A stretch of DNA of 64,000 nt from positions 5,958,501-6,022,500 of the forward strand of contig NZ_JADQDF010000001.1 in the NCBI RefSeq assembly GCF_019263585.2, read 5' to 3'. A program made the position numbers and the translations under genes. The stretch is from Pseudonocardia oceani. GTDB lineage: Bacteria; Actinomycetota; Actinomycetes; Mycobacteriales; Pseudonocardiaceae. Positions 29,295 through 46,413 of the stretch are shown here, piece after piece (the stretch's first letter is position 1; each line of letters opens with the position of its first letter). The notes under the pieces were generated by a model. The model was not told where the DNA came from, searched no databases, and saw only the letters and a program-made list of their open reading frames with translations.

Positions 29295-30101
29295 TCAGGA
29301 CTCCGCTGACCCCGGCTCCGCCATCAGCCGGTGCATCTGGGCCTTCGCCGCGTCCGGCAGCACCGCGTTCGCCACCCCCGACGCCTTCGTCGACACCGAC
29401 CCCGCGATCACCTTCGCGTCGCCGTTCAGCATGGCCTGGAAGCCCTGCTCGGCGACCTGCGCCGGGTCGTCCTTGCTCGAGGCGCCCACGCGGGTGTCAT
29501 CCATGTCGGCGCGGTGGAAGAAGTCGGTCTCCGTCGGCCCGGGCGTGAGCGAGGTGATCGTGACCCCGCTGTCCTTCAGCTCGTTCTGCAGCGCCTCGGT
29601 GAACGACTGCAGGAACGACTTCGAGGCGTTGTAGACGGCCTGGAACGAGCCCGGCATCGTCGACGCGATCGACGACGTCACGAGCACGCGGCCCGCGCCG
29701 CGCCCCACCATGTCGCGCAGCACCAGCTTGGCCAGGTGCACTGTGGAGGAGATGTTGAGGTCGATGATCTCCTGCTCGTCGTCGAGGTCGGTCTCGACGA
29801 ACGCGCCGCCCCGGCCGACCCCGGCGTTGAGCGCGGCGGCGGCGAGCGGGCGGCCGGTGGCGGTCACGGCCTCGAACAGCGTCTCCACGCTCTCGGGCCG
29901 GCGCAGGTCCGCCCGGACGGGCGTCACGGTGCCGCCGGACGCCTGGCCGAGGACCTCGGCGGCGCGGTCCAGGCGCTCGTCCTCGGCGGCGACGACGAGG
30001 TCGTAGCCGTGACCCACGAAGAGCTTGGCCAGCTCGTAGCCGATGCCGCTCGAGGCGCCGGTGACGAGGGCGAGGGGACGGTCCTTCTCGGGTGCGGTCA
30101 T
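29295..30101 (-). CDS. SDR family oxidoreductase
   Basis: 268 aa. NAD(P) motif LVTGASSGIGYELAKL, ALNAGVGRGG, catalytic Ser in VTSSIAST, YNASKSFLQSF with Tyr and Lys, and TSLTPGPTETDFF. Similar to DltE/YqjQ-like SDRs of unknown substrate. The ATG lies 9 nt after GGGTAC, inside the end of the upstream GT9 gene, whose stop overlaps this start (ATGA). It therefore has both read-through and its own stress-type promoter. Confidence 0.8.
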   Translation of the reverse strand: MTAPEKDRPLALVTGASSGIGYELAKLFVGHGYDLVVAAEDERLDRAAEVLGQASGGTVTPVRADLRRPESVETLFEAVTATGRPLAAAALNAGVGRGGAFVETDLDDEQEIIDLNISSTVHLAKLVLRDMVGRGAGRVLVTSSIASTMPGSFQAVYNASKSFLQSFTEALQNELKDSGVTITSLTPGPTETDFFHRADMDDTRVGASSKDDPAQVAEQGFQAMLNGDAKVIAGSVSTKASGVANAVLPDAAKAQMHRLMAEPGSAES

Positions 30102-31210
30102 CCCCGCGACGTACCCGCGGCCGTCGTCGCCATGCCCAGGAGGTCCCGCGCCTCCTCGAGGACCTCGGCGACCGGGATCTGGTCCAGGAACGACGGACGG
30201 TGGTCGCAGCCGTCGCCGGGGCGGTGCGGGTGGCCCGCCGGGGTGCAGTCGACGCCGCACTCGGGGCAGTGCACGGTCCAGCTCAGCAGCGGGCGCGAGG
30301 TGGCGCGGCGCGGGGCGGCGGCGTTGATCGCATTGCCGCACCAGTAGAGGCCGACGGTCGGTGTCCCGACGGCGTGCGCGAGGTGCAGCGGCCCGCTGTC
30401 GTCGGCGATCACCAGCGCACAGCGCGCGAGCACCCCCGCGAGCGTGCCGAGGTCGGTGCGGCCGGTGAGGTCGGGCAGGGGACGGCGGGCGGCGGCGCGC
30501 ACGGCGGCGGCGACGGGCTGCTCGCCCGCGGCCCCGACGAGGACCGGCCGCGCGCCGTCGTCGGTGAGCCGGTCGGCGACCGCGGCGAACCGCTCGGGGG
30601 GCCAGCGGCGCCGGGGGTCGGTCGCACCGGGGTGCAGCGCGATCCACGGCCCCGCGCCGGGGAGCAGCTCCGCGGCGCGCGCGTGCTCGTCGTCGAGGAC
30701 GGCCAGGCGCGGCGTCGCGGACGGGCCGTCGGCGCCGACCAGCGCCGTGACCTCCAGGAACCGCTCCACCTCGGGCTGGTAGTAGCGGTAGGGCACCCAG
30801 CGGTCGAGCTCCGGGGCGCCCTCGGCGCGCAGCCCCACCGCGCAGGCCGCGCCGAACGCCCGCACCAGCGGGTTGGAGGTGGCGCCGCCGCCGTGCAGCT
30901 GCAGGGCGAGGTCGAACCGGCGCTCCCGCAGCCCGGCGAGGAACCCGTCGAGCTCCGACGCCGGCGGCGCGCCCGGAGGCTGCCCGGCCAGGCCCGCGAC
31001 CTCGGGCAGCACCGCCACCTCGTCGACGGGGCCGGGCCGGCCGGTGAGGAACGCCGCGTGCCAGCGCGCACCGACGAGCACGATGTGCGCGTCCGGGTAG
31101 GTGCGGCGCAGGGCGTCGAGCGCGGGGGTGGCCATGAGGTGGTCGCCGAGGGCGTTGGCGCGCAGGACGGCGATCCGGGTGACGCCGTGCAGCGGGTCGG
31201 GAGCGGGCAC
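30098..31210 (-). CDS. Glycosyltransferase family 9 (heptosyltransferase-like)
   Basis: 370 aa GT-B fold. The opening IAVLRANALGDHLMATPALDAL, ALHPGATDPRRRWPPERFAAV and IADDSGPLHLAHAVGTPTVGLY are the standard GT9 motifs; the acceptor-side D/E is in the ELDGF region. A Cys-rich loop near the C-terminus (HCPECGVDCTP) may hold a metal or disulfide. ADP-heptose is the donor for known GT9 enzymes, and the ADP-heptose pathway is encoded nearby. The GTG start lies 9 nt after GGGTAC. Acceptor unknown. Confidence 0.8.
   Translation of the reverse strand: MPAPDPLHGVTRIAVLRANALGDHLMATPALDALRRTYPDAHIVLVGARWHAAFLTGRPGPVDEVAVLPEVAGLAGQPPGAPPASELDGFLAGLRERRFDLALQLHGGGATSNPLVRAFGAACAVGLRAEGAPELDRWVPYRYYQPEVERFLEVTALVGADGPSATPRLAVLDDEHARAAELLPGAGPWIALHPGATDPRRRWPPERFAAVADRLTDDGARPVLVGAAGEQPVAAAVRAAARRPLPDLTGRTDLGTLAGVLARCALVIADDSGPLHLAHAVGTPTVGLYWCGNAINAAAPRRATSRPLLSWTVHCPECGVDCTPAGHPHRPGDGCDHRPSFLDQIPVAEVLEEARDLLGMATTAAGTSRG
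30111..30135 (-). promoter_or_regulatory. Sigma-B-like promoter for the SDR gene
   Basis: Minus strand GCATG, 14 nt, GGGTAC (plus-strand GTACCC at 30111-30116), 9 nt to the ATG at 30101. Located within the 3' end of the GT9 gene. Confidence 0.6.
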
Positions 31211-31217
31211 GTCGGGC

Positions 31218-31244
31218 GCGTACCCGGGGCCCGCCCGGGTAACC
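31218..31244. promoter_or_regulatory. Interlocked divergent sigma-B-like promoters
   Basis: For the minus-strand gene: GGTTA (31240-31244), 14 nt, GGGTAC (31220-31225), 9 nt to the GTG at 31210. For the plus-strand gene: GCGTA (31218-31222), 14 nt, GGGTAA (31237-31242), 9 nt to the GTG at 31252. The -35 of each promoter overlaps the -10 of the other, giving a near-palindromic 27-bp element. Confidence 0.65.
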
Positions 31245-31251
31245 GCCGCAG

Positions 31252-32328
31252 GTGCCCATCGACGACCGACCCGTCCAGCTCGTCCTGCGCGCGCTCCACC
31301 TGGGCGACCTGCTCGTGGCCGTCCCGGCGCTGCGCGGCCTGCGCCGTGCGCGCCCGGACCACCGGCTGGTGCTCGCCGCGCCCGCCGAGCTGGCCCCGCT
31401 CGTCGCGCTGACCGGCGCCGTCGACGACCTGCTGCCGACCCCGGCCCCCGACGCGCTGCGCTGGGACGGCCCGCCGCCGGACGTCGCCGTCAACCTGCAC
31501 GGCTCCGGCCCGGAGAGCCACCGCGCGCTCGACGCCACCGGTCCGCGGGTGCGCATCGGCTACGCCGCGTCCGGCTGGCCGGGCCCGGAGTGGGACGGCC
31601 CGCGCGAGGACCCTCTCGGTCTCACCGACCTCGCCAGCGGCGATCTGGCCGCCGCCGAGCTCGACTCGGGTCACCTCGGCGACGACGAGCTCGGCCTGCG
31701 TGCGCTGGTCACCGACCCGGCGCGCCCCGAGCGGCACGAGCGCGAGCGCTGGTGCGGGATGCTGGCGGCGTTCGACGTCCCCGCCGACCCCGACGACCTG
31801 CTGCTCGCGCCCCCGCCCGCCGTCACCGCCGGCACCCCGCCCACGGTCGTGCACCCCGGCGCCGCCTACGGCTCCAAGCGCTGGCCCGCGGAGCGGTTCG
31901 CGGAGGTGGCCGCGGTGCTGCACGGCGCGGGGCACCGGGTGGTGCTCACCGGCTCGGCGGAGGAGCGGGAGCCGGCGACGCGGGTCGCGGCGCTCGCCGG
32001 CCTGCCGGACACCGCGGTCCTCGCCGGGCGCACCGACCTCGCCCAGCTGGCGTCGCTGGTGGCGGGCGCGGCGCTGGTGGTCAGCGGCGACACCGGCATC
32101 GCCCACCTCGCCTCGGCGTTCCGGACGCCGTCGGTGGTGCTGTTCGGACCGGTCCCGCCGGAGCGGTGGGGTCCACCCGCCACCGGCCCGCACGTGGTGC
32201 TGACCGACGCCGACCGGCGCCGGGGCGAGCCGTTCGCCGACGACCCCGACCCGGCGCTGCTGGCCGTCGAGGTGCCAGACGTGCTGGCGGCGGTGGGGTC
32301 GGTGGTGGGGGCGCGGGCCGGCCGCTGA
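31252..32328 (+). CDS. Glycosyltransferase family 9 (heptosyltransferase-like)
   Basis: 358 aa. QLVLRALHLGDLLVAVPALRGL, VVHPGAAYGSKRWPAERFAEV and VVSGDTGIAHLASAFRTPSVVLFGP match GT9. The middle contains an odd stretch of repeated Asp/Leu units (TDLASGDLAAAELDSGHLGDDELG, split here as about residues 123-146) where other members have a short linker. GTG start 9 nt after GGGTAA. Divergent from another GT9 gene and convergent, 12 nt apart, with the RfaE-like kinase. Acceptor unknown. Confidence 0.8.
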   Translation: MPIDDRPVQLVLRALHLGDLLVAVPALRGLRRARPDHRLVLAAPAELAPLVALTGAVDDLLPTPAPDALRWDGPPPDVAVNLHGSGPESHRALDATGPRVRIGYAASGWPGPEWDGPREDPLGLTDLASGDLAAAELDSGHLGDDELGLRALVTDPARPERHERERWCGMLAAFDVPADPDDLLLAPPPAVTAGTPPTVVHPGAAYGSKRWPAERFAEVAAVLHGAGHRVVLTGSAEEREPATRVAALAGLPDTAVLAGRTDLAQLASLVAGAALVVSGDTGIAHLASAFRTPSVVLFGPVPPERWGPPATGPHVVLTDADRRRGEPFADDPDPALLAVEVPDVLAAVGSVVGARAGR

Positions 32329-32340
32329 CGGCGCGCGGCC

Positions 32341-33303
32341 CTACGCCCCGGCCGACCGCACCGACCGGGAGGGGGCGCTGTCGGGCTGGCCCCACCCCCG
32401 GGCCGTGCGCCGCACCGCGCCCGCACCCCCGGCCGCGACGAAGGCCGACGCGGCCGTCACCCCGCGCTCCACGGCCCGCCGCAGGGACGCGCCGGTGCCC
32501 AGGGCCGCGGCGAGCTCACCGGCGAAGCGGTCGCCCGCGCCGCAGGGGTCGCCGTCGACAGCCGGGGGAGCCGGGACGACGGCGCCGCCGCTGCCGCCCT
32601 GCAGGGCGGCGCCGCGCGACCCGAGCGTCACCACGACCGCCCCCACCCGCCAGCGCTCGCGCAGCGCGTCGGCCAGGCGCAGCACGGCCTCGTCGTCGTC
32701 GGGGGCGGGGGCGGGGACGCCGAGGACCGCGCACGCCTCGGACAGGTTCGGCGTGACGACCGACGTGCCGGGCACCGGATCGCCCCCACGGGGGTGGGGG
32801 TCCCAGACGACCGGTCGGCGGGTGGCGCGCAGGGCGGCCCGCACGCGCGGGTCGGCCGCGACCCCGCGCCCGTAGTCGGAGACCAGGACCGAGCCCCCGC
32901 TGGGGGAGGGCCGCAGCGCCCCGCGCAGGGCCGGGCCCAGCGCCCGCCCGAACCCCGGCGCCGCGCGCCCGGCGCCGCGGTCGGCGCGCAGCAGCACCCG
33001 GCCGTCGGCGCGCAGGCGCGTCTTCACCGCGGTGCCGCCGGTCCCGGGCCCCGCGACGAGCTCGACGCACCCGGCCAGCAGCCCGCGCAGCCGCCGGGCC
33101 GCGTCGTCCTCGTCGAGCGCGGCGACGAGCCGCACGGGCACCGACGCCGCCAGCAGCACCGCGGCCAGCCCCGCGCCGCCGGGCCGGTCGCGCTCCGCGT
33201 CGACGTCCAGGACCGGCGCGGGCGCGTCCGGGCACAGCCGCTCGGCCCGCCCGTCGACGTCCTCGTCGAGCAGCAGGTCCCCGACCACGACGACGCCGGT
33301 CAC
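32341..33303 (-). CDS. RfaE/HldA-like PfkB sugar kinase
   Basis: 320 aa ribokinase fold. VVVVGDLLLDEDVDG followed by CPDAPAPVLDVD is the pattern of heptose-7-phosphate kinases (RfaE domain I). DPCGAGDRFAGELAAAL has the catalytic Asp, VLVSDYGRGV and VVTPNLSEA are also kept. No adenylyltransferase domain. A full bifunctional HldE lies 8 kb away, so this is a second, kinase-only copy. The GTG start overlaps neither end but its gene follows the GT2 gene's strand order, with GTGA overlap at 33300-33303. Confidence 0.7.
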   Translation of the reverse strand: MTGVVVVGDLLLDEDVDGRAERLCPDAPAPVLDVDAERDRPGGAGLAAVLLAASVPVRLVAALDEDDAARRLRGLLAGCVELVAGPGTGGTAVKTRLRADGRVLLRADRGAGRAAPGFGRALGPALRGALRPSPSGGSVLVSDYGRGVAADPRVRAALRATRRPVVWDPHPRGGDPVPGTSVVTPNLSEACAVLGVPAPAPDDDEAVLRLADALRERWRVGAVVVTLGSRGAALQGGSGGAVVPAPPAVDGDPCGAGDRFAGELAAALGTGASLRRAVERGVTAASAFVAAGGAGAVRRTARGWGQPDSAPSRSVRSAGA

Positions 33304-34142
33304 GAGCGCACCACCTCCCGCGCCTCGACGCGCCGGTCGGGCACGGTCGTCGGCGACTCCAGGTGCACCGCGCCCGAGGGCAGGATCCCGGCGCCGCCGA
33401 ACCCGGCGAGGACCCGCAGCTGCGCCAGGACGTCCTCACCGCAGTGCACCGGGGGCAGCTCGGTCCAGAAGTCGAACCCGCCGACGGCGTCGAGCGCGCG
33501 GCGGTCGTAGAGCACGCACCCGCCGACCCAGGCGATCTTGTAGGCGACCCACCGCTCCCCGGGGCCGACGTGCAGGTCCGCGAGGTGGGTGGGGTTGGCC
33601 GCGTTGTGCAGCGTCCAGCGCCGCCACTCCGGGCCGTCGGGGCTGATCCGCTCCGGCTCGGGCCGCCCGTCCCACCGCTCGAACGGGGCCAGCTCGTGCG
33701 GGCGGTGGTCGGCCAGGTGCGACAGCCCCTGCACCGCGGCGCCGACGAGCCCGCAGCGCAGCTCGCCGATGGCCTCGCGCAGGCGGGCGACGGTGCCGGG
33801 CTCCAGCCACACGTCGTCGTCGAGGAACAGCACGTACCGCGCCGGCGACGCCTCCACCAGCGACGCGCGGTGCTCGGCCAGCCCGCGCCGCGGGAGGTGG
33901 CGCCGCGTGCGGACCCGGCGGCCCTGGCGGCGCAGCGCGCGCAGCATCGCCCGGGCCGGGGCCGTCTCGAAGGACGGGGCGCCCGAGGACTGGTCGCTCA
34001 CCAGCACGTCGAACGGGTGGTCCTGACCGGCGAGCCCGGCGAGGGTCGTGGCCAGCTCGACGGGGCGGTCGCAGGTCGGCACGAGCACCTCGAGATCGGG
34101 CGCGAGGTCGGGCGCGGGGTCGAGAGAGTCGGTCGTGTCCAC
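33300..34142 (-). CDS. Glycosyltransferase family 2
   Basis: 280 aa GT-A fold. LEVLVPTCDRPVELATTLAGL, RYVLFLDDDVWLEPGTV (the metal-binding DxD) and the later HCGEDVLAQLRVL acidic pair are seen. No membrane segment. The stretch KIAWVGGCVLYDRRALDAVGGFDFW is typical of GT2 acceptor regions. The N-terminal 18 residues are Asp/Pro-rich. GTG start overlaps nothing upstream; it precedes the RfaE-like kinase gene with a 4-nt overlap, so kinase and transferase are one unit. Sugar donor unknown. Confidence 0.75.
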   Translation of the reverse strand: MDTTDSLDPAPDLAPDLEVLVPTCDRPVELATTLAGLAGQDHPFDVLVSDQSSGAPSFETAPARAMLRALRRQGRRVRTRRHLPRRGLAEHRASLVEASPARYVLFLDDDVWLEPGTVARLREAIGELRCGLVGAAVQGLSHLADHRPHELAPFERWDGRPEPERISPDGPEWRRWTLHNAANPTHLADLHVGPGERWVAYKIAWVGGCVLYDRRALDAVGGFDFWTELPPVHCGEDVLAQLRVLAGFGGAGILPSGAVHLESPTTVPDRRVEAREVVRS

Positions 34143-34162
34143 ATCGGTGAGATCGCCGCTGG

Positions 34163-34181
34163 GGAGCGGTCTAAACGCTCC
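34163..34181 (-). terminator. Short hairpin between the BON-methyltransferase and GT2 genes
   Basis: GGAGCG (34163-34168), 7-nt loop, CGCTCC (34176-34181), in the 88-nt gap. Only 6 bp long. It could be an attenuator or a weak terminator. Confidence 0.3.
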
Positions 34182-34230
34182 GCAGCCAACTGCTACTCCC
34201 CGTGTCGACTCCTGACCCTCGGTGGAGAGG

Positions 34231-34947
34231 TCAGTCGAAGAACCGCGCCGACCGCGTCGCCGGCACCTCGTGGTCGGCCGCGACGGGCGTGAGGTCGGCG
34301 AACACCGTGGCGCCGTCGTTGCCGACGTGCAGCGGTGACCAGCGCCGCGGCGACCCGGCCCGCGCGCAGATCCCCTTGACCGTCTGCGTGTCGAGCATCC
34401 GCACGTGCGTCGGGTCGGCCACGGCGTTGACGTGGCGCCACCAGGGCGTGAGCACGTGCAGCACGCCTCCGGGGCGCAGCACGCGGTGGCACTCGTCGAC
34501 CAGCGCCAGGAAGTCGAGCAGGTGCTCCAGGACGTGGACGGCGAAGATGCGGTCGGCGCAGCCGTCGCGGAAGGGCAGCGCGCGGGAGAGGTCGGCCTGC
34601 ACGGCCACCGCACCGGTGCGGCGCAGATCGACGCCCAGGTTGGTCGGGTACTGCGGCTGGTCGCCGCAGCCGAGGTCGAGCACCACGGGCTCGCGCCCGC
34701 CGACCCGCACCCGGTCCCACACGGCGTGCACCCCGGCGAGCCTCCCGATCACCTCGCGCACCCGGGCCAGGTCGGCGCCGTCGTCGACGTCGCCGGTGAG
34801 GTGGACGACGCCGCCGTCGGCCTCGCCCTTCACCTCGATGCCCCGCAGGCGGTCGTCGTGGGTGAAGAGGTCCCCCACCGCCGCGGTGAGGTCCTCGTCG
34901 CAGAGCGCGCTGCGGCGCGCCGACATCGGCGCGGCCCCGATCCGCAC
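34231..34947 (-). CDS. BON domain-methyltransferase fusion
   Basis: 238 aa. Residues about 15-85 form a BON domain (GGVVHLTGDVDDGADLARVR, then VIGRLAGVHAVWDRVRV). It is followed directly by a SAM-dependent methyltransferase of type 11: VVLDLGCGDQPQYPTN (SAM site), LPFRDGCADRIFAVHVLEHL and HRVLRPGGVLHVLTP. BON domains usually bind membranes or polysaccharide in periplasmic or envelope proteins, so fusion to a cytoplasmic-type methyltransferase is unusual. Likely methylates a glycan or lipid intermediate of this cluster (inference). GTG start after GGGAG; a perfect GTTTC-N14-GGGTAC promoter lies upstream. Confidence 0.8.
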   Translation of the reverse strand: MRIGAAPMSARRSALCDEDLTAAVGDLFTHDDRLRGIEVKGEADGGVVHLTGDVDDGADLARVREVIGRLAGVHAVWDRVRVGGREPVVLDLGCGDQPQYPTNLGVDLRRTGAVAVQADLSRALPFRDGCADRIFAVHVLEHLLDFLALVDECHRVLRPGGVLHVLTPWWRHVNAVADPTHVRMLDTQTVKGICARAGSPRRWSPLHVGNDGATVFADLTPVAADHEVPATRSARFFD

Positions 34948-34981
34948 GGCGGTCTCCCTTCGTCGGTCCCGAACCCGGCCC

Positions 34982-35006
34982 GTACCCGGCGATCGGGAGG
35001 AGAAAC
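34982..35006 (-). promoter_or_regulatory. Sigma-B-like promoter for the BON-methyltransferase
   Basis: Minus strand GTTTC (35002-35006), 14 nt, GGGTAC (34982-34987). This is the best match to the classic GTTT/GGGTAC stress-sigma consensus in the window. The leader is about 35 nt with a GGGAG ribosome site. Confidence 0.75.
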
Positions 35007-35090
35007 CGCTACTGAACGTAGTAGTGGTGACGGTGAGTAGTAGTAGCGGTGATCGTGTTTAGGTACGGGTGCTCCGGTGACCTCTCCACG

Positions 35091-35666
35091 GTGAGCATCA
35101 GCGCAGACCGCCCGGCCGTCCCGGCCGCCGTGCTGTTCGACCGGGACGGCACGCTCGTCGTGGACGTCCCCTACAACGGCGACCCCTCCCGGGTCCGCCC
35201 CGTGCCCTCCGCCGCTCCCGCCGTCGCCCTCCTGCGTGCCGCGGGGATACCCGTCGGCGTCGTCACCAACCAGTCCGGCATCGCCCGCGGGATCCTCACC
35301 GCCGCGCAGGCCGACGCCGTCAACCGGCGGGTCGACGACCTGCTCGGCCCGTTCGACGTGTGGGAGGTCTGCCCGCACGGCCCGGACGACGGCTGCGGGT
35401 GCCGCAAGCCCGCCCCCGGCATGGTCCTGTCGGCCGCGTCCCGCCTCGGCGTCGCGCCGGAGCGGGTGGCCGTGATCGGTGACATCGGCGCGGACGTGGG
35501 CGCCGCGGAGGCGGCCGGCGCCGTCGGCGTGCTGGTGCCGACGCCCGTGACGCGCCCCGAGGAGGTCCGCGCCGCCCGCCTGGTGCGCGCCGACCTCGTC
35601 GAGGCCGTCCGCACGCTGCTGGGCGAGGCCCCCGGTGTCCCCGATTCCCCTGGGGCCGCCGCGTGA
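35091..35666 (+). CDS. gmhB: D-glycero-D-manno-heptose 1,7-bisphosphate phosphatase (GmhB-like)
   Basis: 191 aa HAD phosphatase of the HisB/GmhB type. LFDRDGTLVVDVPYN holds the nucleophile and acid-base Asp pair, GVVTNQSGIARG is motif II, CPHGPDDGCGCRKPAPGM provides the zinc ligands and motif III Lys, and VIGDIGADVGAAEAAG is motif IV. It should remove the 7-phosphate in ADP-heptose synthesis. Start uncertain: the GTG at 35091 gives the usual length, while a GTG at 35049 is open. It heads a run of seven plus-strand genes ending with hldE. Confidence 0.85.
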   Translation: MSISADRPAVPAAVLFDRDGTLVVDVPYNGDPSRVRPVPSAAPAVALLRAAGIPVGVVTNQSGIARGILTAAQADAVNRRVDDLLGPFDVWEVCPHGPDDGCGCRKPAPGMVLSAASRLGVAPERVAVIGDIGADVGAAEAAGAVGVLVPTPVTRPEEVRAARLVRADLVEAVRTLLGEAPGVPDSPGAAA

Positions 35667-36742
35667 GGCGGGTCCTGGTGGTCCGCCTCGACGGCGCGGG
35701 TGACGTCCTGCTCGCCGGGCCCGCGGTGCGCGCGATCGCCCGCGACGCGCAGGTGACGATGCTGTGCGGCCCGGCGGGCGCCCCTGCCGCGCGGCTGCTC
35801 CCCGGCGTCGGTGACGTGCTGGAGTTCGCCGCGCCCTGGGTGCTGGCCGACCCGCCGCCGGTGACGACCGCCGGCACGGCCGCGCTGATCGGCGCGCTCG
35901 CCGCGCGCCGCTTCGACGCCGCCGTCGTCCTCACCTCGTTCCACCAGTCGCCGCTGCCGATCGCGCTCGTGCTGCGCCTGGCCGGGGTGCCGTTCGTCGG
36001 TGGGGCGTCGGTCGACCACGCGGGCGCCCTGCTCGACGTCCGGCTGCGCCCGGGCGAGGACCTCGACGAGGACCTCCCCGAGTCCGAGCGCGCGCTGGCG
36101 ATCGCGGCGGCGTCCGGGTTCCCCGCCGATCCCGCCGACGACGGGCGCCTCGCCCTCCGCACCACCTCGCCGCCCGCCGTCCTGCGCCTGGCCGCCGGCT
36201 GGACGGGCCCGCCCTACGTCGTCGTTCACCCCGGTGCCGCCGTCGGCGCCCGCCGCTGGCCCGCCGGGCACCACGCGGAGGCCGTCCGCCTGCTCGCCGC
36301 CGCCGGGTGGCGGGTCGTCGTGACCGGAGGGCCGGGGGAGTGCGACCTCACCGCGCAGGTCGCCGGCGACGACGCCCTCGACCTCGGTGGCCGCACCGAC
36401 CTCGCCGGGCTCGCGGGCGTGCTCGCCGGCGCCGAGGCGCTGGTCGTCGGCAACACCGGCGCCGCCCACCTCGCCGCCGCCGTCGGGACGCCGGTCGTGT
36501 CGCTGTTCGCCCCCGTCGTCCCGGCCGTGCGCTGGCGCCCCCACGGGGTGCCGCACGTGCTGCTGGGCGACCAGCGTGCCGCCTGCCGCGACTCCCGCGC
36601 CCGCGACTGCCCCGTCGCCGGTCACCCCTGCCTGGCCGGCGTGACCCCCGCCGAGGTCGCCGCCGCCGTCGAGCGGCTCACCACCCGCAACCCCGACCCG
36701 CACCGCTTCGTCCCCGCCGACGAGGGAGGCATCCCCGCGTGA
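35663..36742 (+). CDS. Glycosyltransferase family 9 (heptosyltransferase-like)
   Basis: 359 aa. RVLVVRLDGAGDVLLAGPAVRAI, VVHPGAAVGARRWPAGHHAEAV and VVGNTGAAHLAAAVGTPVVSLF are GT9 motifs, with the C-terminal cysteine set CRDSRARDC plus CLAG seen in many GT9 proteins. The segment VLTSFHQSPLPIAL resembles the fourth GT9 in this island, so the two may be paralogues. GTG start overlaps the gmhB stop (GTGA); its stop overlaps the next start. Acts in the cytoplasm on a lipid- or protein-linked acceptor, by analogy. Confidence 0.8.
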   Translation: MRRVLVVRLDGAGDVLLAGPAVRAIARDAQVTMLCGPAGAPAARLLPGVGDVLEFAAPWVLADPPPVTTAGTAALIGALAARRFDAAVVLTSFHQSPLPIALVLRLAGVPFVGGASVDHAGALLDVRLRPGEDLDEDLPESERALAIAAASGFPADPADDGRLALRTTSPPAVLRLAAGWTGPPYVVVHPGAAVGARRWPAGHHAEAVRLLAAAGWRVVVTGGPGECDLTAQVAGDDALDLGGRTDLAGLAGVLAGAEALVVGNTGAAHLAAAVGTPVVSLFAPVVPAVRWRPHGVPHVLLGDQRAACRDSRARDCPVAGHPCLAGVTPAEVAAAVERLTTRNPDPHRFVPADEGGIPA

Positions 36743-37752
36743 ACATCCTCGTGTGGCACGTGCACGGCTCCTGGACGACGTCGTTCGTGCAGGGCCGCCA
36801 CCGCTACCTCCTCCCGACGCTGCCCGAGCGCGGCCCGTGGGGCGGCGGCCGCCCCGCGGCGTGGGAGTGGCCCGCCGACGCCGTCGAGGTGCCGCCCGAC
36901 CGGCTCGCCGACGAGCCCGTGGACCTCGTCGTGCTCCAGCGCCCCGAGGAGCTCGACCTCGCCGCCGCGTGGCTGCGCCGCACCCCCGGCCGCGACGTCG
37001 CCGCCGTGTACCTGGAGCACAACACGCCCAAGGGGCCCGCGGTCACGACGCGGCACCCGGTGGCCGACCGCCCCGAGCTGCCGCTCGTGCACGTCACGCA
37101 CTTCAACGACCTGGTCTGGGACGCGGGCGACGCCCGCACGACCGTGATCGAGCACGGCATCGTCGACCCGGGCCGCCGCTACACCGGCGAGCTCGCCGCG
37201 GCCGCGGTCGTCGTCAACGAACCGCTGCGGCGCGGGCGCGTCACCGGCACCGACCTGCTGCCCGGGCTGTCGGAGACGGCCCCGCTCGACGTGTTCGGCA
37301 TGGGCACCGACGGCCTGGGGGACGCGCTCGGCCGCCCGGCGACCATCCGGGGCATCGGTGACCTGCCGCAGGACCTGATGCACGCCGAGATGGCTCGCAG
37401 ACGGGTGTACCTGCACCCCATCCGCTGGACGTCCCTGGGACTGGCGCTTGTCGAGGCCATGCACCTGGGTATGCCGGTGGTGGCCCTGGCCACCACGGAG
37501 GCGGTCGAGGCCGTCCCACCCGGCACCGGGTACTGCGGCACCGACCCGGCGCGGCTGGCCGGAGCGCTGCGCGAGCTCGTGGCGGAGCCGGAGCTGGCCC
37601 GCCGGCGCGGCGCCGCGGCCCGCGCCCACGCACTGCAGCGCTACGGCCTGGACCGCTTCCTGGCCGACTGGGACGTGGTGCTCGACCGCACGGTCGAACG
37701 ACACCAGGAGCACGTGCGGGCCCGCGGGCCCGTGACGAGAGGAAGGACGTGA
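36739..37752 (+). CDS. GT-B glycosyltransferase (GT4-like)
   Basis: 337 aa. The N-terminal part (ILVWHVHGSWTTSFVQGRHRY) and the C-terminal LHPIRWTSLGLALVEAMHLGMPVVALATTEAVEAVP match the nucleotide-sugar domain of GT4-like enzymes: the E of ALVEAM is the donor-binding Glu. The N-terminal domain holds YLEHNTPKGPAVTTRHP. Shorter than most GT4 proteins (about 380). Both ends overlap neighbours by 4 nt within the heptose operon. Donor and acceptor unknown. Confidence 0.75.
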   Translation: MNILVWHVHGSWTTSFVQGRHRYLLPTLPERGPWGGGRPAAWEWPADAVEVPPDRLADEPVDLVVLQRPEELDLAAAWLRRTPGRDVAAVYLEHNTPKGPAVTTRHPVADRPELPLVHVTHFNDLVWDAGDARTTVIEHGIVDPGRRYTGELAAAAVVVNEPLRRGRVTGTDLLPGLSETAPLDVFGMGTDGLGDALGRPATIRGIGDLPQDLMHAEMARRRVYLHPIRWTSLGLALVEAMHLGMPVVALATTEAVEAVPPGTGYCGTDPARLAGALRELVAEPELARRRGAAARAHALQRYGLDRFLADWDVVLDRTVERHQEHVRARGPVTRGRT

Positions 37753-38996
37753 GGCACATGCGCATCGACATGGTCTCCGAGCACGCGAGCCCACTCGCGC
37801 GGCCCGGCGGTCCCGACTCGGGCGGTCAGAACGTCCACGTCGCCGAGCTGAGCCGCGCGCTGGGCGCGCAGGGCCACGAGGTGGTGGTCTGGACGCGGCG
37901 CGACGACCCCGCCGCGCCCGCCGCGGTCCCGTTCGCGCCCGGCGTGACGGTGCGGCACATGGACGCCGGGCCCGCCGCGCCCGTGCCGAAGGACCACCTG
38001 GTGCCGCACGTGCCGGCGATGGCCGCGGTGCTGGAGCGGGCGTGGGCGCAGGACCCGCCCGACGTCGCGCACGGGCACTTCTGGATGTCCGGGCTCGCCG
38101 TGGTCGCCGCGGCCGGGCGCGTCGGCGTGCCGGCGGTGCAGACCTTCCACGCCCTCGGGGTGGTGAAGCGGCGCCACCAGGGTCGCGGGGACACCAGTCC
38201 GGCAGGGCGGGTCGCGGCCGAGCAGGCCGTCGCCGCCCGCGTGGACCAGGTCGTCGCGACCTGCAGCGACGAGGCGTTCGAGCTCGTCCGGATGGGCGTG
38301 CGGCGCAACCGGATCTCGGTCGTGCCGTGCGGTGTCGACACCGAGCGCTTCCACCCCGACGGCCCGGCCGCCGAGTGCGACCCGGAGGTGCCGCGGCTGG
38401 TCTCGATCGGGCGGCTGGTGCGGCGCAAGGGCGTGGACGAGGCCGTGAAGGCGCTGAGCCGCGTGCCCGGCGCCGAGCTCGTGGTGGCCGGCGGGCCCGC
38501 CGCGGGCGAGCTGGACGACGACCCCGACATCCAGCGGTTGCGCGCGGTCGCCGAGCAGGTGGGCGTGACCGACCGCGTCCGGTTCGTCGGGGCCGTGGCC
38601 CGCGACGACGTGCCCGCGCTGATGCGCTCGGCCGACGTCGTCGTGTGCGTGCCCTGGTACGAGCCGTTCGGCATGGTGCCGCTGGAGGCGATGGCGTCGG
38701 GGCGGCCCGTGGTGGCCGCCGCCGTCGGCGGGCTCACCGACACCGTCGTCGACGGCGTGACGGGTGTGCACGTGCCGCCGAAGCGACCCGACAGGCTCGC
38801 CGTCGCCCTGCGCCGGATGCTCGCCCAGCCCGCCCTGCTCGAGGGCCTCGGCGTGGCCGGTCGCGACCGCGCCACGTCGTGCTACGGCTGGTCGCGCGTC
38901 GCCGAGTCGACCGCGCACGCCTACGAGCGCGCGATCGGGCAGCGCCGCCGGTCCGCCGTCGACGTCGCCGGCGGCGCCGACGACGTGGCCCACTGA
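37749..38996 (+). CDS. Glycosyltransferase family 4 (MshA/sucrose-synthase-like clade)
   Basis: 415 aa. RPGGPDSGGQNVHVAELSRAL (Gly-rich loop), HGHFWMSGL, VVPCGVDTERFHP, SIGRLVRRKGVDEAVKAL and CVPWYEPFGMVPLEAMASG (E-x7-E motif) are complete for a retaining GT4 enzyme. The DSGGQNVHV loop is shared with MshA and sucrose-phosphate-synthase-like proteins. The GTG at 37749 is used because it overlaps the previous stop as elsewhere in this operon; an ATG at 37758 is an alternative. Confidence 0.8.
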   Translation: MRHMRIDMVSEHASPLARPGGPDSGGQNVHVAELSRALGAQGHEVVVWTRRDDPAAPAAVPFAPGVTVRHMDAGPAAPVPKDHLVPHVPAMAAVLERAWAQDPPDVAHGHFWMSGLAVVAAAGRVGVPAVQTFHALGVVKRRHQGRGDTSPAGRVAAEQAVAARVDQVVATCSDEAFELVRMGVRRNRISVVPCGVDTERFHPDGPAAECDPEVPRLVSIGRLVRRKGVDEAVKALSRVPGAELVVAGGPAAGELDDDPDIQRLRAVAEQVGVTDRVRFVGAVARDDVPALMRSADVVVCVPWYEPFGMVPLEAMASGRPVVAAAVGGLTDTVVDGVTGVHVPPKRPDRLAVALRRMLAQPALLEGLGVAGRDRATSCYGWSRVAESTAHAYERAIGQRRRSAVDVAGGADDVAH

Positions 38997-39033
38997 GCCA
39001 CACCCCACCCGCTCCCCCGACGGAAGGACACGC

Positions 39034-39837
39034 ATGACCGCCGACACCCAGCCCGCCGACACCCAGCCCGCCGACACCCGGCCCGCCGACACCCGGCCCG
39101 CACCCGCCCCCGACACCCGCGGCGACGGCCCCGGCACCGTCCTGGTCACCGGCGCGGCGTCGGGCCTGGGCCGCGCGGTCGCCTCCGCCGTCGCCGCGGC
39201 GGGCGGACGGCCGCTGCTGCTCGACCGCGTCGACCCCCGCGTCGACGCCGGTGACGCGCACCCGGCACTGGGCGACGCGCCCACCGCGGTCGTCGACCTG
39301 TCCGACACCCGCGCCGCCGAGCAGGCCGTCGCCGAGCTCGCCGCCCGCGCCGGGACGCTCGACGCCGTCGTCACCGCGGCGGGCACCGACCGCTGCGGCA
39401 CGCTGCAGGAGGTGCCGGGGGAGGAGTGGGACCGGGTCGTCATCGTCAACCTGCTCGGCACGGCCGCGGTGATCCGCGGCGCGCTGCCCCGCCTGCGGGA
39501 GAGCCACGGGCGGATCGTCACCGTCGCCTCCACCCTCGGGCTGCGCGCGCTGTCGGACGCGAGCGCGTACTGCGCGTCGAAGTTCGGGGTCATCGGGCTG
39601 AGCCGGGCGCTGGCCACGGAGCTCGCCGGCGAGGTCGGCCTCACGACGCTGATCCCCGGCGGCATGGACACCGCCTTCTTCGACGGCCGTCCCGAGCAGT
39701 ACCGCCCCGGCCCGGACGCGAAGCTCAACGACCCCCGCAACGTCGCCGACGCCGTGCTGTTCGCGCTGACCCGCCCGCCCGGCTGCGAGGTCCGCGAGCT
39801 CGTGGTGTGCGCGGCCACCGAGCCGTCGTGGCCCTGA
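39034..39837 (+). CDS. SDR family oxidoreductase with repeat-bearing N-terminus
   Basis: 267 aa. After ATG come four tandem five-residue units ADTQP, ADTQP, ADTRP, ADTRP encoded by 15-bp repeats, then a standard SDR: VLVTGAASGLGRAVAS, TAAGTDRCG, VTVASTLGLRAL, YCASKFGVIG and LIPGGMDTAFF. The repeat makes a flexible, Pro-rich tail and could vary in copy number between strains. AAGGA precedes the ATG. In the heptose operon it could reduce or epimerise a sugar intermediate (inference). Confidence 0.75.
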   Translation: MTADTQPADTQPADTRPADTRPAPAPDTRGDGPGTVLVTGAASGLGRAVASAVAAAGGRPLLLDRVDPRVDAGDAHPALGDAPTAVVDLSDTRAAEQAVAELAARAGTLDAVVTAAGTDRCGTLQEVPGEEWDRVVIVNLLGTAAVIRGALPRLRESHGRIVTVASTLGLRALSDASAYCASKFGVIGLSRALATELAGEVGLTTLIPGGMDTAFFDGRPEQYRPGPDAKLNDPRNVADAVLFALTRPPGCEVRELVVCAATEPSWP

Positions 39838-40964
39838 GCCCGCCCGAGGTCCCGGGTCACCACCCCGGGGCCGACCGCGGGCAGCCGCTCGACCCCGACG
39901 CCGTGCGGCGGGTGCTGGTGGTCCGCGCCGACAACGCGGGCGACGTCGTCATGGCGGGGCCGGTGGTGCGGGCGCTGCGGGCGTTCGCCCCGCACGCCGT
40001 GATCGACCTGCTCGCCTCGCCCGCCGGCACGCCGGTCGGGCCGCTGTTGCCCGGCGTCGACGAGGTGGTGACGGTGTCGCCCAGCTGGCAGCAGCTCACC
40101 CCACGCCGGGAACCGGCCCGCGAGGAGGCCGCTCGCGAGCGGCGCCTCGTGGAGGGCCTGCGGGCCCGCTGCTACGACACGATGATCGTGCTGACCTCGT
40201 TCTCCCAGTCGCCGTGGCCCGCCGCGCACGTCGGGCTGCTGGCCGGGATCCGCCGCCGGGTGGTGCACTCGCGCGAGTTCGGCGGGGCCGTCGCCACGCA
40301 CTGGGTGACCCCACCCCCCGACACCACCCACCAGGTCGACCGCGGCCTGCACCTGCTCGGCGCGGTCGGGGTCCCGCCGCGGGGCGCCACCCCCGCACTG
40401 GCCCTGCCCCCGACCGCCGTGCGCACCGCGGGGGAGGTGCTCGACCGCCGCGGCGACGGCCCGTTCGCCGTGCTCGCCCCCGGGGCGTCGGCGCCGTCGC
40501 GGCGCTACCCCGCCGCCGCGTTCGGCCGGGTCGCCGCCCGGGTGGCCGCGTCGGGGCTGCCCGTGCTCGTCGCCGGCACCCCGGCCGAGGCCGCGCTGGT
40601 CGGCGACGTCGTCGACACCGCCGCGCACCCCGACGTCACCGCGCTGGACCCGGCCGGGCTGCCCGCCTTCGCCGCGGTGCTGGCCCGCGCGTCGGTCGCG
40701 ATCACGAACAACTCCGGCGGCATGCACCTCGCCGCGGCGCTGGGCACACCGGTCGCGGTGGCCTATGCCGGCACCGAGCGGACCGGGGACATGCGCCCCC
40801 GGGGCGCGCCCTCGGCCCTGCTCGGCGCGCCCGTGCCGTGCTCACCGTGCCGGCTGCTGCGCTGCCCGTTCGACCGGCAGTGCCTCGACGTCGAACCCGA
40901 CCGGCTCGCCGGGGCCGCCCTGCGCCTGGCCGGACGCGCCCGCACCCCCGCGCCCGCGGGCTGA
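39828..40964 (+). CDS. Glycosyltransferase family 9 (heptosyltransferase-like)
   Basis: 378 aa. RRVLVVRADNAGDVVMAGPVVRAL, VLAPGASAPSRRYPAAAFGRV and ITNNSGGMHLAAALGTPVAVAY are the GT9 signatures, and CSPCRLLRCPFDRQC near the end is the cysteine pattern of bona fide heptosyltransferases. Shares VLTSFSQSPWPAAH with the GT9 at 35.7 kb. GTG start overlaps the SDR stop by 10 nt. Fourth GT9 gene in 11 kb; its product likely adds one heptose of a multi-heptose glycan (inference). Confidence 0.82.
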   Translation: MALSPPEVPGHHPGADRGQPLDPDAVRRVLVVRADNAGDVVMAGPVVRALRAFAPHAVIDLLASPAGTPVGPLLPGVDEVVTVSPSWQQLTPRREPAREEAARERRLVEGLRARCYDTMIVLTSFSQSPWPAAHVGLLAGIRRRVVHSREFGGAVATHWVTPPPDTTHQVDRGLHLLGAVGVPPRGATPALALPPTAVRTAGEVLDRRGDGPFAVLAPGASAPSRRYPAAAFGRVAARVAASGLPVLVAGTPAEAALVGDVVDTAAHPDVTALDPAGLPAFAAVLARASVAITNNSGGMHLAAALGTPVAVAYAGTERTGDMRPRGAPSALLGAPVPCSPCRLLRCPFDRQCLDVEPDRLAGAALRLAGRARTPAPAG

Positions 40965-41039
40965 CCCCGTGCTCCCCGTCCGTGCCGCCGGCCGCGCCGA
41001 CCCCGCCGGCCCCACCCCGACCCGTTCCGAGGAGGACCG

Positions 41040-42560
41040 GTGACCCCCACGACCACTCCCCGCACGACCTCCGGCGTCCCGGTCGTCGCGCCCGCCCCGG
41101 CGGGTCTCGTCGGCACCGTCCGCGACCGCGCGCCGCGCGTGCTCGTCCTGGGCGACGCCCTGCTCGACGGCTGGGTGTCCGGCCCGGTGCGCCGCATCGG
41201 CCGCGACGCCCCGGTGCCGGTGGTGGAGCCCGACTCGGCGAGCACCGCGCCCGGCGGCGCCGCGAACGTCGCGGCCAACCTGGCCGCGCTGGGCGCCGAC
41301 GTCACGCTCGTCGCGGTCTTCGGCGACGACGCCGACGGCCGTTCCCTGCGCGCCGCGCTGCTCGACCTCGGCGTGGGCCTGGACCGCTCCGTCGTCGAGC
41401 TCGGGCGGGCCACCAGCGCCAAGCACCGCGTGCTCGCGGCGGGCCAGCCGGTGGCGCGCTACGACACCGGGCCGGACGGGCCGCCCCGCCGCTCCACCGA
41501 CCTCGCCGTGGCCGACGCGCTGAGCGAGGCCGTCGCGGCGGGCGTCGACGCGGTCGTCGTGGCCGACTACGGGCTCGGCACGCCGGGCCCGCGCGCGCGG
41601 CGGCGCCTGGAGCGGCTGCGGTCGCGGCTGCCGCTGCTCGTCGTCGACGCCCACGACCCGGGCCGCTGGGCCTGCCTGCACCCCGACGTCGTGACGCCGA
41701 GCGCCGCCGAGGCCGCCGCCCTGCTCGGGGAGGCGCCGCCCACCGGCGATCGCGCGGCGTGGGGCGTCGAGCGGGCCGCGGCGCTGCACGCCGCCACCGG
41801 GGCCGCGGAGGTCCTGCTCACCCTCGACGTCGACGGGGCGGTGCGGCTGCCGGTCTCCGGCGAGCCGGGGCGCCGGCCCGCCGAGCGGCCCGCCGTCGAG
41901 TCGATGGCCTGCGGCGCGGGCGACACGTTCACCGCGGCGTGGACCGCCGTGCGCTGCGCCGGCGCCGGTGCGGACGCCGCGCTGGCCTGCGCGCAGTCGG
42001 CCGCGGACGTGGTCGTCGCCCGGCCGGGCACGGTCGTCTGCTCGGCCGACGCGCTCACCGCGCGCCTGGCCGCGGGCGACCGGGGCACGGTGCTCGAGCA
42101 CCGCGACCTGCTCCGCGCGCTGGACGAGCACCGCCGGGCCGGGCACCGGATCGTGTTCACCAACGGCTGCTTCGACGTCCTGCACCGCGGCCACGTCGCC
42201 TACCTGCGCCAGGCCCGCGCGCTCGGCGACGTCCTGGTGGTGGCGCTCAACGCCGACGAGAGCGTCGCCCGGCTCAAGGGCCCCGAGCGCCCGGTCAACC
42301 CGCTGGTCGACCGCGCGGGGGTGGTGGGCGCCGTCGACGCCGTCGACCTCGTCACCGCCTTCGACGCCGACACCCCCGTCGACCTCATCGCACAGGTCCG
42401 GCCCGACGTCTACGCCAAGGGCGGCGACTACACCGCGCAGATGCTCCCGGAGACGCCGGTGGTGGAGCGCCTGGGCGGCGAGGTGCACGTGCTCAGCTAC
42501 CTCTCCGACCACTCGACGACGGCGATCGTCGCGCGGATCCGGGCGGACACCGCGACCTGA
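41040..42560 (+). CDS. hldE: Bifunctional heptose 7-phosphate kinase / heptose 1-phosphate adenylyltransferase HldE
   Basis: 506 aa. Domain I (about 30-335) is a PfkB kinase: VLVLGDALLDGWVSGPVRRI then DAPVPVVE, VVVADYGLGTPG and MACGAGDTFTAAW. Domain II (about 360-506) is a nucleotidyltransferase: IVFTNGCFDVLHRGHVAYL with the HxGH motif, then VALNADESVARLKGPERP and KGGDYT. It makes ADP-D-glycero-beta-D-manno-heptose from the 7-phosphate together with GmhB. GTG start after GAGGAGGA. Last gene of the gmhB-to-hldE run. The epimerase HldD is not evident nearby. Confidence 0.92.
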   Translation: MTPTTTPRTTSGVPVVAPAPAGLVGTVRDRAPRVLVLGDALLDGWVSGPVRRIGRDAPVPVVEPDSASTAPGGAANVAANLAALGADVTLVAVFGDDADGRSLRAALLDLGVGLDRSVVELGRATSAKHRVLAAGQPVARYDTGPDGPPRRSTDLAVADALSEAVAAGVDAVVVADYGLGTPGPRARRRLERLRSRLPLLVVDAHDPGRWACLHPDVVTPSAAEAAALLGEAPPTGDRAAWGVERAAALHAATGAAEVLLTLDVDGAVRLPVSGEPGRRPAERPAVESMACGAGDTFTAAWTAVRCAGAGADAALACAQSAADVVVARPGTVVCSADALTARLAAGDRGTVLEHRDLLRALDEHRRAGHRIVFTNGCFDVLHRGHVAYLRQARALGDVLVVALNADESVARLKGPERPVNPLVDRAGVVGAVDAVDLVTAFDADTPVDLIAQVRPDVYAKGGDYTAQMLPETPVVERLGGEVHVLSYLSDHSTTAIVARIRADTAT

Positions 42561-45414: not shown

Positions 45415-45446
45415 GGGGGGCCTCCCGGGTGCCGGATGCGGAGCCC

Positions 45447-45845: not shown

Positions 45846-45966
45846 GAGACCCCCACGAACGCGCTGCTGGAGCCGCCCGCGGGGTCAGGGGGAGCGACGG
45901 AAGGTCCGACAGTAGCACCGTGTGCACGGCGCGGCCCCCCGAGCGGGCGCGCCCCGGGAACCGGAG

Positions 45967-46347: not shown

Positions 46348-46413
46348 GCGCTCCGCATCCCCTTCGGAGCCGACGGTGCGGACCGCCCCACCGTACGCCC
46401 GCTCGCGGGCGGG

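Follow-up and report, generated by a model that had tools for sequence, protein, structure and literature searches.

The cwg operon of Streptomyces coelicolor (SCO6179-6190, cwgA-L) is a sigma-E/vancomycin-induced "cell wall glycan" locus, the description of which is traced by later papers, in their accessible parts, to Hong et al. 2002. In the available part of PMC6767563 it is named as one of the two targets first described for the Streptomyces envelope-stress sigma factor. The published annotation is cell wall glycan synthesis, with cwgH as a phosphoheptose isomerase and cwgE as a putative heptosyl transferase; the product figures in the available literature as a predicted cell wall glycan, and no heptose in it is reported in the accessible cwg literature. 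The accessible part of a 2008 survey covering solved bacterial glycans restricts L-glycero-D-manno-heptose to Gram-negatives, a statement which concerns the L,D form. A Rhodococcus ruber mutant in the heptose-activating gmhD is reported, at second hand, to lose its capsule and thus provides, via the GDP route, a precedent for heptose-dependent surface material in an actinomycete.

Among 392 genomes belonging to a Streptomyces-like genus, one contains the published cwg promoter as an exact 29/29 match. Behind this match lies a 12-gene block (L149) holding gmhB, GT9, GT4, GT4, gmhA, HldE and GT9, which was employed throughout as a promoter-anchored stand-in for the S. coelicolor cwg proteins. 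Promoter matches occur in nine genomes; of six stretches examined, the block is present in four (with some genes of L150 matched as two fragments), L151 retains a remnant, and L153 shows none of it within 20 kb.

The window, i.e. the whole analysed stretch of 64,000 nucleotides of Pseudonocardia oceani (contig NZ_JADQDF010000001.1, positions 5,958,501 to 6,022,500), contains the following genes:

25664..27013, plus strand: aldehyde dehydrogenase, possible extended member (PF00171)
29295-30101, minus strand: SDR
30098..31210, minus strand: GT9a, heptosyltransferase-like (PF01075, 106.6 bits)
31252..32328, plus strand: GT9b, cwgJ relative (PF01075, 112.8 bits)
32341..33303, minus strand: kinB, kinase half of a cwg-type HldE1 (cwgI) (RfaE domain I, 125 bits, below cut-off)
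33300..34142, minus strand: GT2, accessory gene often adjoining HldE2 (PF00535)
34231..34947, minus strand: BON and SAM-methyltransferase protein (PF04972, PF08241)
35049..35666, plus strand: GmhB-like heptose-bisphosphate phosphatase, cwgD relative (PRK08942 as best family, 113.7 bits, below cut-off)
35663..36742, plus strand: GT9c, cwgE relative (PF01075, 82.4 bits)
36739..37752, plus strand: GT4a, cwgF relative, conserved GT4 (63% identity to L149)
37749..38996, plus strand: GT4b, cwgG relative, sucrose-phosphate-synthase/MshA-like GT4 (MshA model, 244.6 bits, below cut-off)
39034..39837, plus strand: SDRb, short-chain dehydrogenase (PF00106)
39807..40964, plus strand: GT9d, accessory paralogue of the cwgE clade (PF01075, 76.2 bits)
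41040..42560, plus strand: HldE2, second-lineage kinase-nucleotidyltransferase (TIGR02199, 189.5 bits, above cut-off)
42614..43663, plus strand: NAD-dependent epimerase-like protein, possible member (PF01370)
61048..61677, plus strand: GmhA, cwgH relative, displaced by about 18 kb (TIGR00441, 135.5 bits, below cut-off)

All genes named in an earlier note on this DNA are present, at exactly or very nearly the positions given there. Each of the four GT9 proteins scores above the Pfam cut-off (Glyco_transf_9), and since four of the five GT9 matches of the genome lie within 11 kb and the 61-kb gmhA is by far the better of two genomic matches (136 versus 62 bits), the arrangement is more than chance. 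The kinase, GmhB and GmhA fall below the NCBIfam equivalog cut-offs, so that their names are given by best-family score and context, and only the HldE nucleotidyltransferase domain exceeds its cut-off. At the margins, the aldehyde dehydrogenase shares 59-67% identity with the one inside Arthrobacter-type loci, the cluster of which is found in 37 of 100 loci, and the epimerase-like protein 42-48% with a family clustered in 8 of the 100. The island GT2 is 51-76% identical to GT2 hits at other loci. SDRb is a frequent core partner (cluster in 61 of 100 loci) that does not occur in the Streptomyces 12-gene version; the BON-methyltransferase protein, located inside the island, does not figure in the hit lists of the 100 loci and was not recognised as a conserved partner.

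The gmhB-GT9(cwgE)-GT4-GT4 run of the window is collinear with and homologous to the L149 block, with identities of 68% (gmhB), 63% (GT9c), 63% (GT4a) and 54% (GT4b). Homologues of gmhA (61%), HldE (40% for HldE2) and the GT9 at the cwgJ place (GT9b, 49%) are all found near the core, HldE1 as a kinase half only and gmhA at 61 kb. Representatives of the cwgA, B, C, K and L families gave no match (E 1e-10) between 23.5 and 63.5 kb of the window, and a scan of four places, the regions preceding gmhB, GT9b, SDRb and HldE2, found no sigma-E-like AAC-N17-20-GTC element; the locus is therefore a variant and not a canonical 12-gene cwg operon. A carbamoyltransferase encoded about 210 kb before the window, the one match of the genome, was considered as a displaced cwgB and rejected at 34-37% identity. 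Upstream of cwgA-type genes in 31 loci the cwg promoter has at best 7 mismatches (L044) and otherwise 10-15, which limits promoter similarity to close relatives. Taken together, the island is likely to be a rearranged and expanded relative of the actinobacterial cwg locus that feeds NDP-heptose to envelope-glycan GT9 enzymes.

Relatives of this core are spread over many actinomycete families. In a class-wide sample of 296 genomes the cwgE-type GT9 is present in 71 and the HldE nucleotidyltransferase in 69, both together in 67, GT9c alone in four, HldE alone in two and neither in 223 (Fisher 7e-59, with relatedness among genomes ignored); in 17 of 20 stretches examined (18 genomes) the core lies beside HldE. 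The novelty implied by the suggestion of the earlier note that the glycan might be of a kind not yet described is not supported, given this frequency and a cwg relative that is already annotated. Fused open frames point in the same direction as the co-occurrence: among 112 stretches, GT2-GmhB fusions occur in 26 and GT4b-GmhA fusions in two cases, and a GmhB-GT9c fusion is found in three stretches of two genomes. Owing to the cwg kinship, the co-occurrence and these fusions of GmhB and GmhA to glycosyltransferases, the NDP-heptose made at the locus is probably consumed by these enzymes. As to the samples, the locus of one genome is represented twice, as L038 and L059, and L156 and L157 likewise share a genome; set A1 comprises the window and 15 of 18 hits (L033, L041 and L048 left out), set A2 the window and 31 of 61 proteins. 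The shared-family labels UDP-sugar dehydrogenase and LysR were assigned by eye, and one family is without a Pfam match.

Among the 21 families common to at least eight loci no flippase, polymerase or exporter was recognised, so that a surface location stays inferred. The absence of a recognised exporter or ligase among the shared families would suit a heptose route serving a small secreted natural product rather than an envelope glycan, and three further observations lean that way: septacidin, a Streptomyces product, uses NDP-heptose (accessible part of PMC11461863), L043 carries an isomerase-kinase-nucleotidyltransferase fusion without a surrounding cwg core, and the Streptomyces cwgB-type protein resembles antibiotic O-carbamoyltransferases. 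However, the same 21 families include no recognised PKS or NRPS, and a secondary-metabolite island is disfavored by the wide spread of the core together with the control of the Streptomyces version by sigma-E as an envelope-stress target; we consider a septacidin-like product quite unlikely.

The envelope-glycan reading is refined by the HldE step, for which the window offers two proteins. In a tree of 58 rows of at least 250 aa (a subset chosen by hand for spread) kinB falls into the core HldE1 clade with Pseudonocardia (support 97/83 and 99/94) and HldE2 into the HldE2 clade, likewise with Pseudonocardia (100/96). KinB retains the NLSE and GAGD motifs, its nucleotidyltransferase domain is gone, and the next gene follows at 12 bp. 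The nucleotidyltransferase of HldE2 passes the curated TIGR02199 cut-off of 181.5 bits, while its kinase domain (164.4 versus 345 bits) and the whole protein (313.6 versus 521) remain below the equivalog cut-offs. HldE1 lacks the nucleotidyltransferase in seven of 98 loci, always in the vicinity of a second copy (7 of 46 stretches that have a second HldE copy versus 0 of 52 without), and in two of the seven the second copy is a lone nucleotidyltransferase; second copies were judged inside the examined stretch, and the contig-end kinases L115 and L122 stand outside the 98. What is new here, as read from the sequences, is the divided HldE step: of the cwg-type HldE only the kinase is left, and the nucleotidyltransferase is predicted to be supplied by a second HldE lineage. 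The same data might be taken to mean that there is a second, separate pathway, made up of HldE2, GT9a, GT9d and GT2 and leading to a heptose product of its own, and that kinB is a dying remnant, as L035 and L048 carry HldE2, GT2 and a GT9 away from the core and GT9a and GT9d lie in clades of their own. This is unlikely in view of the preserved kinB motifs and of domain loss confined to loci with a second copy; moreover, L058 and L073 pair a kinase-only HldE1 with a nucleotidyltransferase-only second copy, complementary halves that together make one pathway.

The motifs of HldE2 bear on its substrate and on the nucleotide transferred. The protein contains CFDVLHRGH and DHSTT, and its kinase NxxE motif reads SAAE. 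In nine of 75 core HldE1 rows, each from a Streptomyces-type locus, A, S or C stands in place of the asparagine, and in 39 other HldE2 rows the position is S in three (L035, L051, L057) and N in 36; the idea that the HldE2 kinase is dead because of SAAE was not kept, since core HldE1 proteins vary likewise. According to the published STTR5 rule, nucleotidyltransferases that carry (F/L)XXGRSTT form CDP- and UDP-heptose as well. The STTR5 place is R in 53 of 69 core HldE1 rows and H in the window HldE2 and in 16 of 38 other HldE2 rows; with H at this place and without the preceding motif glycine, the window HldE2 lies outside the rule. Of the earlier proposal of a route from sedoheptulose 7-phosphate to ADP-heptose beside heptosyltransferase-like enzymes, the NDP-heptose route is supported, whereas the identification of the nucleotide as ADP from the HldE type needs care.

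That HldE2, kinB and the GT9 enzymes work on another sugar and no heptose is formed would be in keeping with the missed equivalog cut-offs of kinase, GmhB and GmhA, with SAAE and the lacking motif glycine, and with GT9 not being restricted to heptose, the family including N-acetylglucosaminyltransferase activity according to the accessible part of the source. Some GT9 members may therefore use other sugars. Nevertheless we hold a route entirely free of heptose to be very improbable: the nucleotidyltransferase exceeds its equivalog cut-off, all four enzyme types of the route are present in the genome, HldE goes with GT9c across genomes, GmhB and GmhA are tied to glycosyltransferases by fusions, and the departure from NxxE recurs in core HldE1 proteins.

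Returning to heptose as the sugar, the four GT9 proteins are putative NDP-heptose users, a role assigned by homology and, for GT9c, by fold. In a GT9 tree of 65 rows, hand-picked for spread, GT9c groups with cwgE (support 100/99), GT9b lies inside the cwgJ clade (100/100) and GT9d in a sister group of the cwgE clade (100/98). GT9a, an accessory type that often accompanies HldE2, forms a separate clade (100/100) together with its counterparts in Pseudonocardia kunmingensis, Arthrobacter and Curtobacterium. The predicted model of GT9c matches best E. coli WaaF, a Veillonella GT9 and E. coli WaaC. GT4a is predicted with a pLDDT of 95.3 to adopt a GT4 fold with no single close match, and the nearest solved chains to GT4b are Tll1590 (219 bits) and 3c48 (160 bits); as to the acceptors of both, fold and sequence searches gave nothing beyond general GT4 relatives.

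From what was observed, namely gene content, cwg-block homology, co-occurrence, fusions and an HldE1 nucleotidyltransferase that is lost only beside a second copy, the following reactions, nucleotide, acceptor and location are proposed. GmhA would convert sedoheptulose 7-phosphate to heptose 7-phosphate, kinB, the HldE2 kinase or both would yield heptose 1,7-bisphosphate, and GmhB would remove the 7-phosphate. The HldE2 nucleotidyltransferase would then form NDP-D-glycero-D-manno-heptose, most probably as the ADP form and with no 6-epimerase involved. The GT4 and GT2 enzymes may start a short oligosaccharide on an envelope acceptor, to which the cwgE- and cwgJ-type GT9 and the two extra GT9s may add heptoses. 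More generally, and with slightly less than even confidence, we propose that actinomycete NDP-heptose serves mainly the cwg glycan, which would correspond in Gram-positives to the LPS inner core and be a short heptose oligosaccharide that is induced by wall-acting antibiotics and, in Streptomyces, O-carbamoylated, with the supply in Pseudonocardia-like loci split between a kinase-only HldE1 and a second HldE. Co-occurrence, fusions and domain loss predict heptose in the cwg product. If true, Gram-positive actinomycetes would produce the sort of heptose glycan that has mostly been linked to LPS until now, and they would contain NDP-heptoses, agonists of the ALPK1 immune pathway according to the accessible part of PMC11461863.

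In order to place the locus among known systems, it was compared with four of them. The LPS inner-core pathway (GmhA, HldE, GmhB, HldD, WaaC/WaaF) employs the same enzyme families, and the GT9c model matches its transferases. In line with the statement of the earlier note that the organism lacks LPS, however, neither LpxC (PF03331) nor Kdo-transferase (PF04413) is matched in the genome, both searches recovering E. coli among the controls, and no HldD exceeds the cut-off. An LPS-like pathway is therefore rejected, and the acceptor must be a different one. The actinobacterial tridomain synthetases (Tang et al. 2022) likewise serve NDP-heptose synthesis in actinomycetes, but fuse isomerase, kinase and nucleotidyltransferase (PMC11573728, accessible part), whereas the window encodes its isomerase and one of its kinases as separate proteins. 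The cwg operon shares the order of gmhB, GT9 (cwgE), GT4 and GT4 and relatives of gmhA, HldE and the cwgJ-type GT9; unlike it, the window has gmhA and the kinase-only HldE1 displaced from the run, adds an SDR, two extra GT9s, another GT2 and HldE2, and is without cwgA, B, C, K and L homologues or a sigma-E-like promoter at the four places. The double-HldE cwg-type loci of Arthrobacter, Curtobacterium, Pseudonocardia and relatives have the same core, many of them with SDRb, GT9a, HldE2, GT2 and the aldehyde dehydrogenase. Compared with these, the gene order of the window is different and gmhA lies about 18 kb away, while Pseudonocardia halophobica and P. oroxyli possess a kinase-only HldE1, like the window.

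Gene calling together with Pfam and NCBIfam scans recovered every gene named in the earlier note. The following are referred to below, with bracketed names taken from the cell wall glycan operon of Streptomyces coelicolor (cwgA-L, SCO6179-6190):

30098-31210, minus strand: GT9a, family 9 glycosyltransferase
31252-32328, plus strand: GT9b, relative of cwgJ
32341-33303, minus strand: kinB, kinase half of the cwg-type HldE1 (cwgI)
35049-35666, plus strand: gmhB (cwgD)
35663-36742, plus strand: GT9c, relative of cwgE
39034-39837, plus strand: SDRb
39807-40964, plus strand: GT9d
41040-42560, plus strand: HldE2, second-lineage kinase-nucleotidyltransferase
61048-61677, plus strand: gmhA (cwgH)

Four of the five GT9 matches in the genome lie within the window, and the fifth, outside it, is a relative of GT9b. 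Of two gmhA matches the 61-kb copy is the stronger; its counterpart, on a different contig, matches far less well. In the NCBIfam scan of the window heptose genes only the HldE nucleotidyltransferase domain reached its curated cut-off. Phosphoketolase and acetate kinase genes, which use related sugar phosphates, are adjacent at 51312-54847, between the island and gmhA, and a bacterial type IB DNA topoisomerase gene is found at 57181-58230.

In a survey of the phylum the HldE nucleotidyltransferase exceeded the cut-off in 47 of 396 genomes. Around such matches 20 stretches were fetched, drawn from 18 genomes that belong mostly to the class of the window, and 17 of the stretches share a core of gmhB, GT9c, GT4b (cwgG), gmhA and an HldE-type kinase, usually accompanied by GT4a (cwgF), SDRb and GT9b. 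A GT9c profile scan of named genomes yielded at least 501 relatives among the candidates, of which 80 were kept; the matches listed include Pseudonocardia (best, 73%), Arthrobacter, Streptomyces, Curtobacterium, Geodermatophilaceae, Nocardia and others. Pseudonocardia proteins are the nearest tree rows of kinB, of HldE2 and of all four window GT9s, so that the genome probably belongs to the Pseudonocardiaceae.

The Streptomyces loci of the scan (e.g. L084, L105, L116) exhibit a twelve-gene order of epimerase/dehydratase, carbamoyltransferase, GT2, gmhB, GT9c, GT4a, GT4b, gmhA, HldE1, GT9b, GT2 and GT2. The published cwg promoter occurs with up to three mismatches in 9 of 392 genomes of one genus, probably Streptomyces, given that its cwg blocks mostly share 72-89% identity with the S. 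echinoruber block. The match is exact in a single genome, G631, and is followed there by the same twelve genes; promoter and gene order link the SCO numbers to G631, whose proteins stand in for those of S. coelicolor. The window proteins are 68% (gmhB), 63% (GT9c), 63% (GT4a), 54% (GT4b), 61% (gmhA), 40% (HldE2) and 49% (GT9b) identical to this block. In the GT9 tree GT9c groups with cwgE (100/99) and GT9b with cwgJ (100/100), GT9d belongs to a group sister to the cwgE clade and GT9a forms a separate clade. Another of the nine promoter-bearing genomes (L151) carries the promoter with one mismatch and only pieces of the operon downstream, apparently a decayed cwg locus.

In one set of 296 genomes from the class, 71 carry GT9c (E up to 1e-30), 69 the HldE nucleotidyltransferase (E up to 1e-40) and 67 both, leaving four with GT9c alone and two with HldE alone. 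One of these two, G352 of the Streptomyces-like genus, has isomerase, kinase and nucleotidyltransferase fused in a stretch (L043) that lacks the cwg core. Across 112 stretches, open frames fuse GT2 with GmhB in 26, GmhB with GT9c in three (from two genomes), GT4b with GmhA in two and GmhA with the kinase in one. The GT9c model (mean pLDDT 85.8) has E. coli WaaF as its best match, ahead of a GT9 from Veillonella and of E. coli WaaC. Taken together, co-occurrence, fusions and model matches link the supply of the sugar to these glycosyltransferases. The GT9 family also includes N-acetylglucosaminyl transfer, according to the accessible part of PMC12113805.

The earlier note had derived ADP-heptose from the HldE type, and judged by sequence this product is likely rather than certain. 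In the Tang et al. 2024 commentaries (PMC11461863; accessible part of PMC11573728) the arginine of (F/L)XXGRSTT marks nucleotidyltransferases that also accept CTP and UTP; the window HldE2 reads YLSDHSTT. At the arginine position the 69 core HldE1 rows contain R (53), Y (8) or H (8), and the 38 other HldE2 rows R in 20 and H in 16, none of these HldE2 rows having the motif's glycine; Tyr is commoner than Phe or Leu as first residue. No HldD in the genome exceeds the cut-off (best 112.8 versus 274.6 bits), therefore the D,D form of the heptose is expected.

Within 21 families common to at least eight loci, one of them without a Pfam match, no flippase, polymerase or exporter was recognised, which counts against a long polymer; the product may instead be a short glycan attached to a lipid or to some other acceptor. 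For Streptomyces, though not for the window, a carbamoylated sugar is likely, given the similarity of the carbamoyltransferase there to O-carbamoyltransferases like TobZ and the novobiocin enzyme. A literature search returned no paper containing all three whole words cwg, heptose and Streptomyces, and none of the titles listed for heptose or heptosyltransferase together with actinomycetes or Gram-positive walls concerns a heptose glycan in an actinomycete wall. The accessible part of a 2008 survey of solved bacterial glycans places L-glycero-D-manno-heptose in Gram-negatives only (PMC2543016). Excerpts of PMC12298843 and PMC12786566 report at second hand that deletion of Rhodococcus ruber gmhD (heptose 1-phosphate guanosyltransferase) abolishes the capsule, and as far as these go this is a precedent, via the GDP route, for heptose-dependent surface material in an actinomycete.

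A sigma-70 family gene is located near 25 of 100 cwg-type loci (L052, L067, L078, L109, L057 and 20 others), roughly half of which are Arthrobacter-type, a hint that stress control may extend beyond Streptomyces; the member scanned (L109) comprises regions 2, 3 and 4. Downstream of the island, at 44620-48207, a GAF-ANTAR protein, two STAS proteins and a SpoIIE phosphatase/kinase protein form a partner-switching stress set, with no sigma factor among the window proteins scanned around it. Salt raises an ADP-heptose:LPS heptosyltransferase gene in Frankia (PMC5563000) and cwgA in S. coelicolor (PMC13011467), according to the accessible parts of these papers.

The kinase-domain tree separates HldE1 and HldE2 cleanly, placing kinB with Pseudonocardia HldE1 (97/83, 99/94) and the window HldE with Pseudonocardia HldE2 (100/96). 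Domain mapping of 112 stretches gave 98 usable HldE1 kinases, seven of which lack the nucleotidyltransferase (L051, L055, L057, L058, L073, L080 and the window). All seven belong to the 46 stretches with a second HldE copy and none to the 52 without; by relatedness they represent about three separate events (the Pseudonocardia group; Kibdelosporangium and Actinosynnema; Humibacter), therefore these counts are non-independent. L058 and L073 have as second copy a stand-alone nucleotidyltransferase that shares 59% identity with that of the window HldE2; in L060 the reduced copy is the other one, and P. kunmingensis (L054) has an HldE1 with degenerate nucleotidyltransferase motifs. Most simply read, the two copies serve a single pathway, and the window is midway through dividing the work between them. 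In the window HldE2 kinase SAAE stands in place of the NxxE motif, possibly weakening it; core HldE1 rows of Streptomyces type likewise have A, S or C at this place, so the motif is uninformative.

The window locus is a cwg variant and not the canonical operon, since the own-genome stretches spanning 23.5 to 63.5 kb contain no homologues of cwgA, B, C, K or L and no sigma-E-like motif precedes the four plus-strand genes scanned. Whereas in many other cwg-type loci gmhA and HldE1 lie between GT4b and SDRb, in the window SDRb follows GT4b after 37 bp, gmhA is displaced to 61 kb, and HldE1 persists at 32-33 kb as kinB, without its nucleotidyltransferase and ending 12 bp from the next gene.
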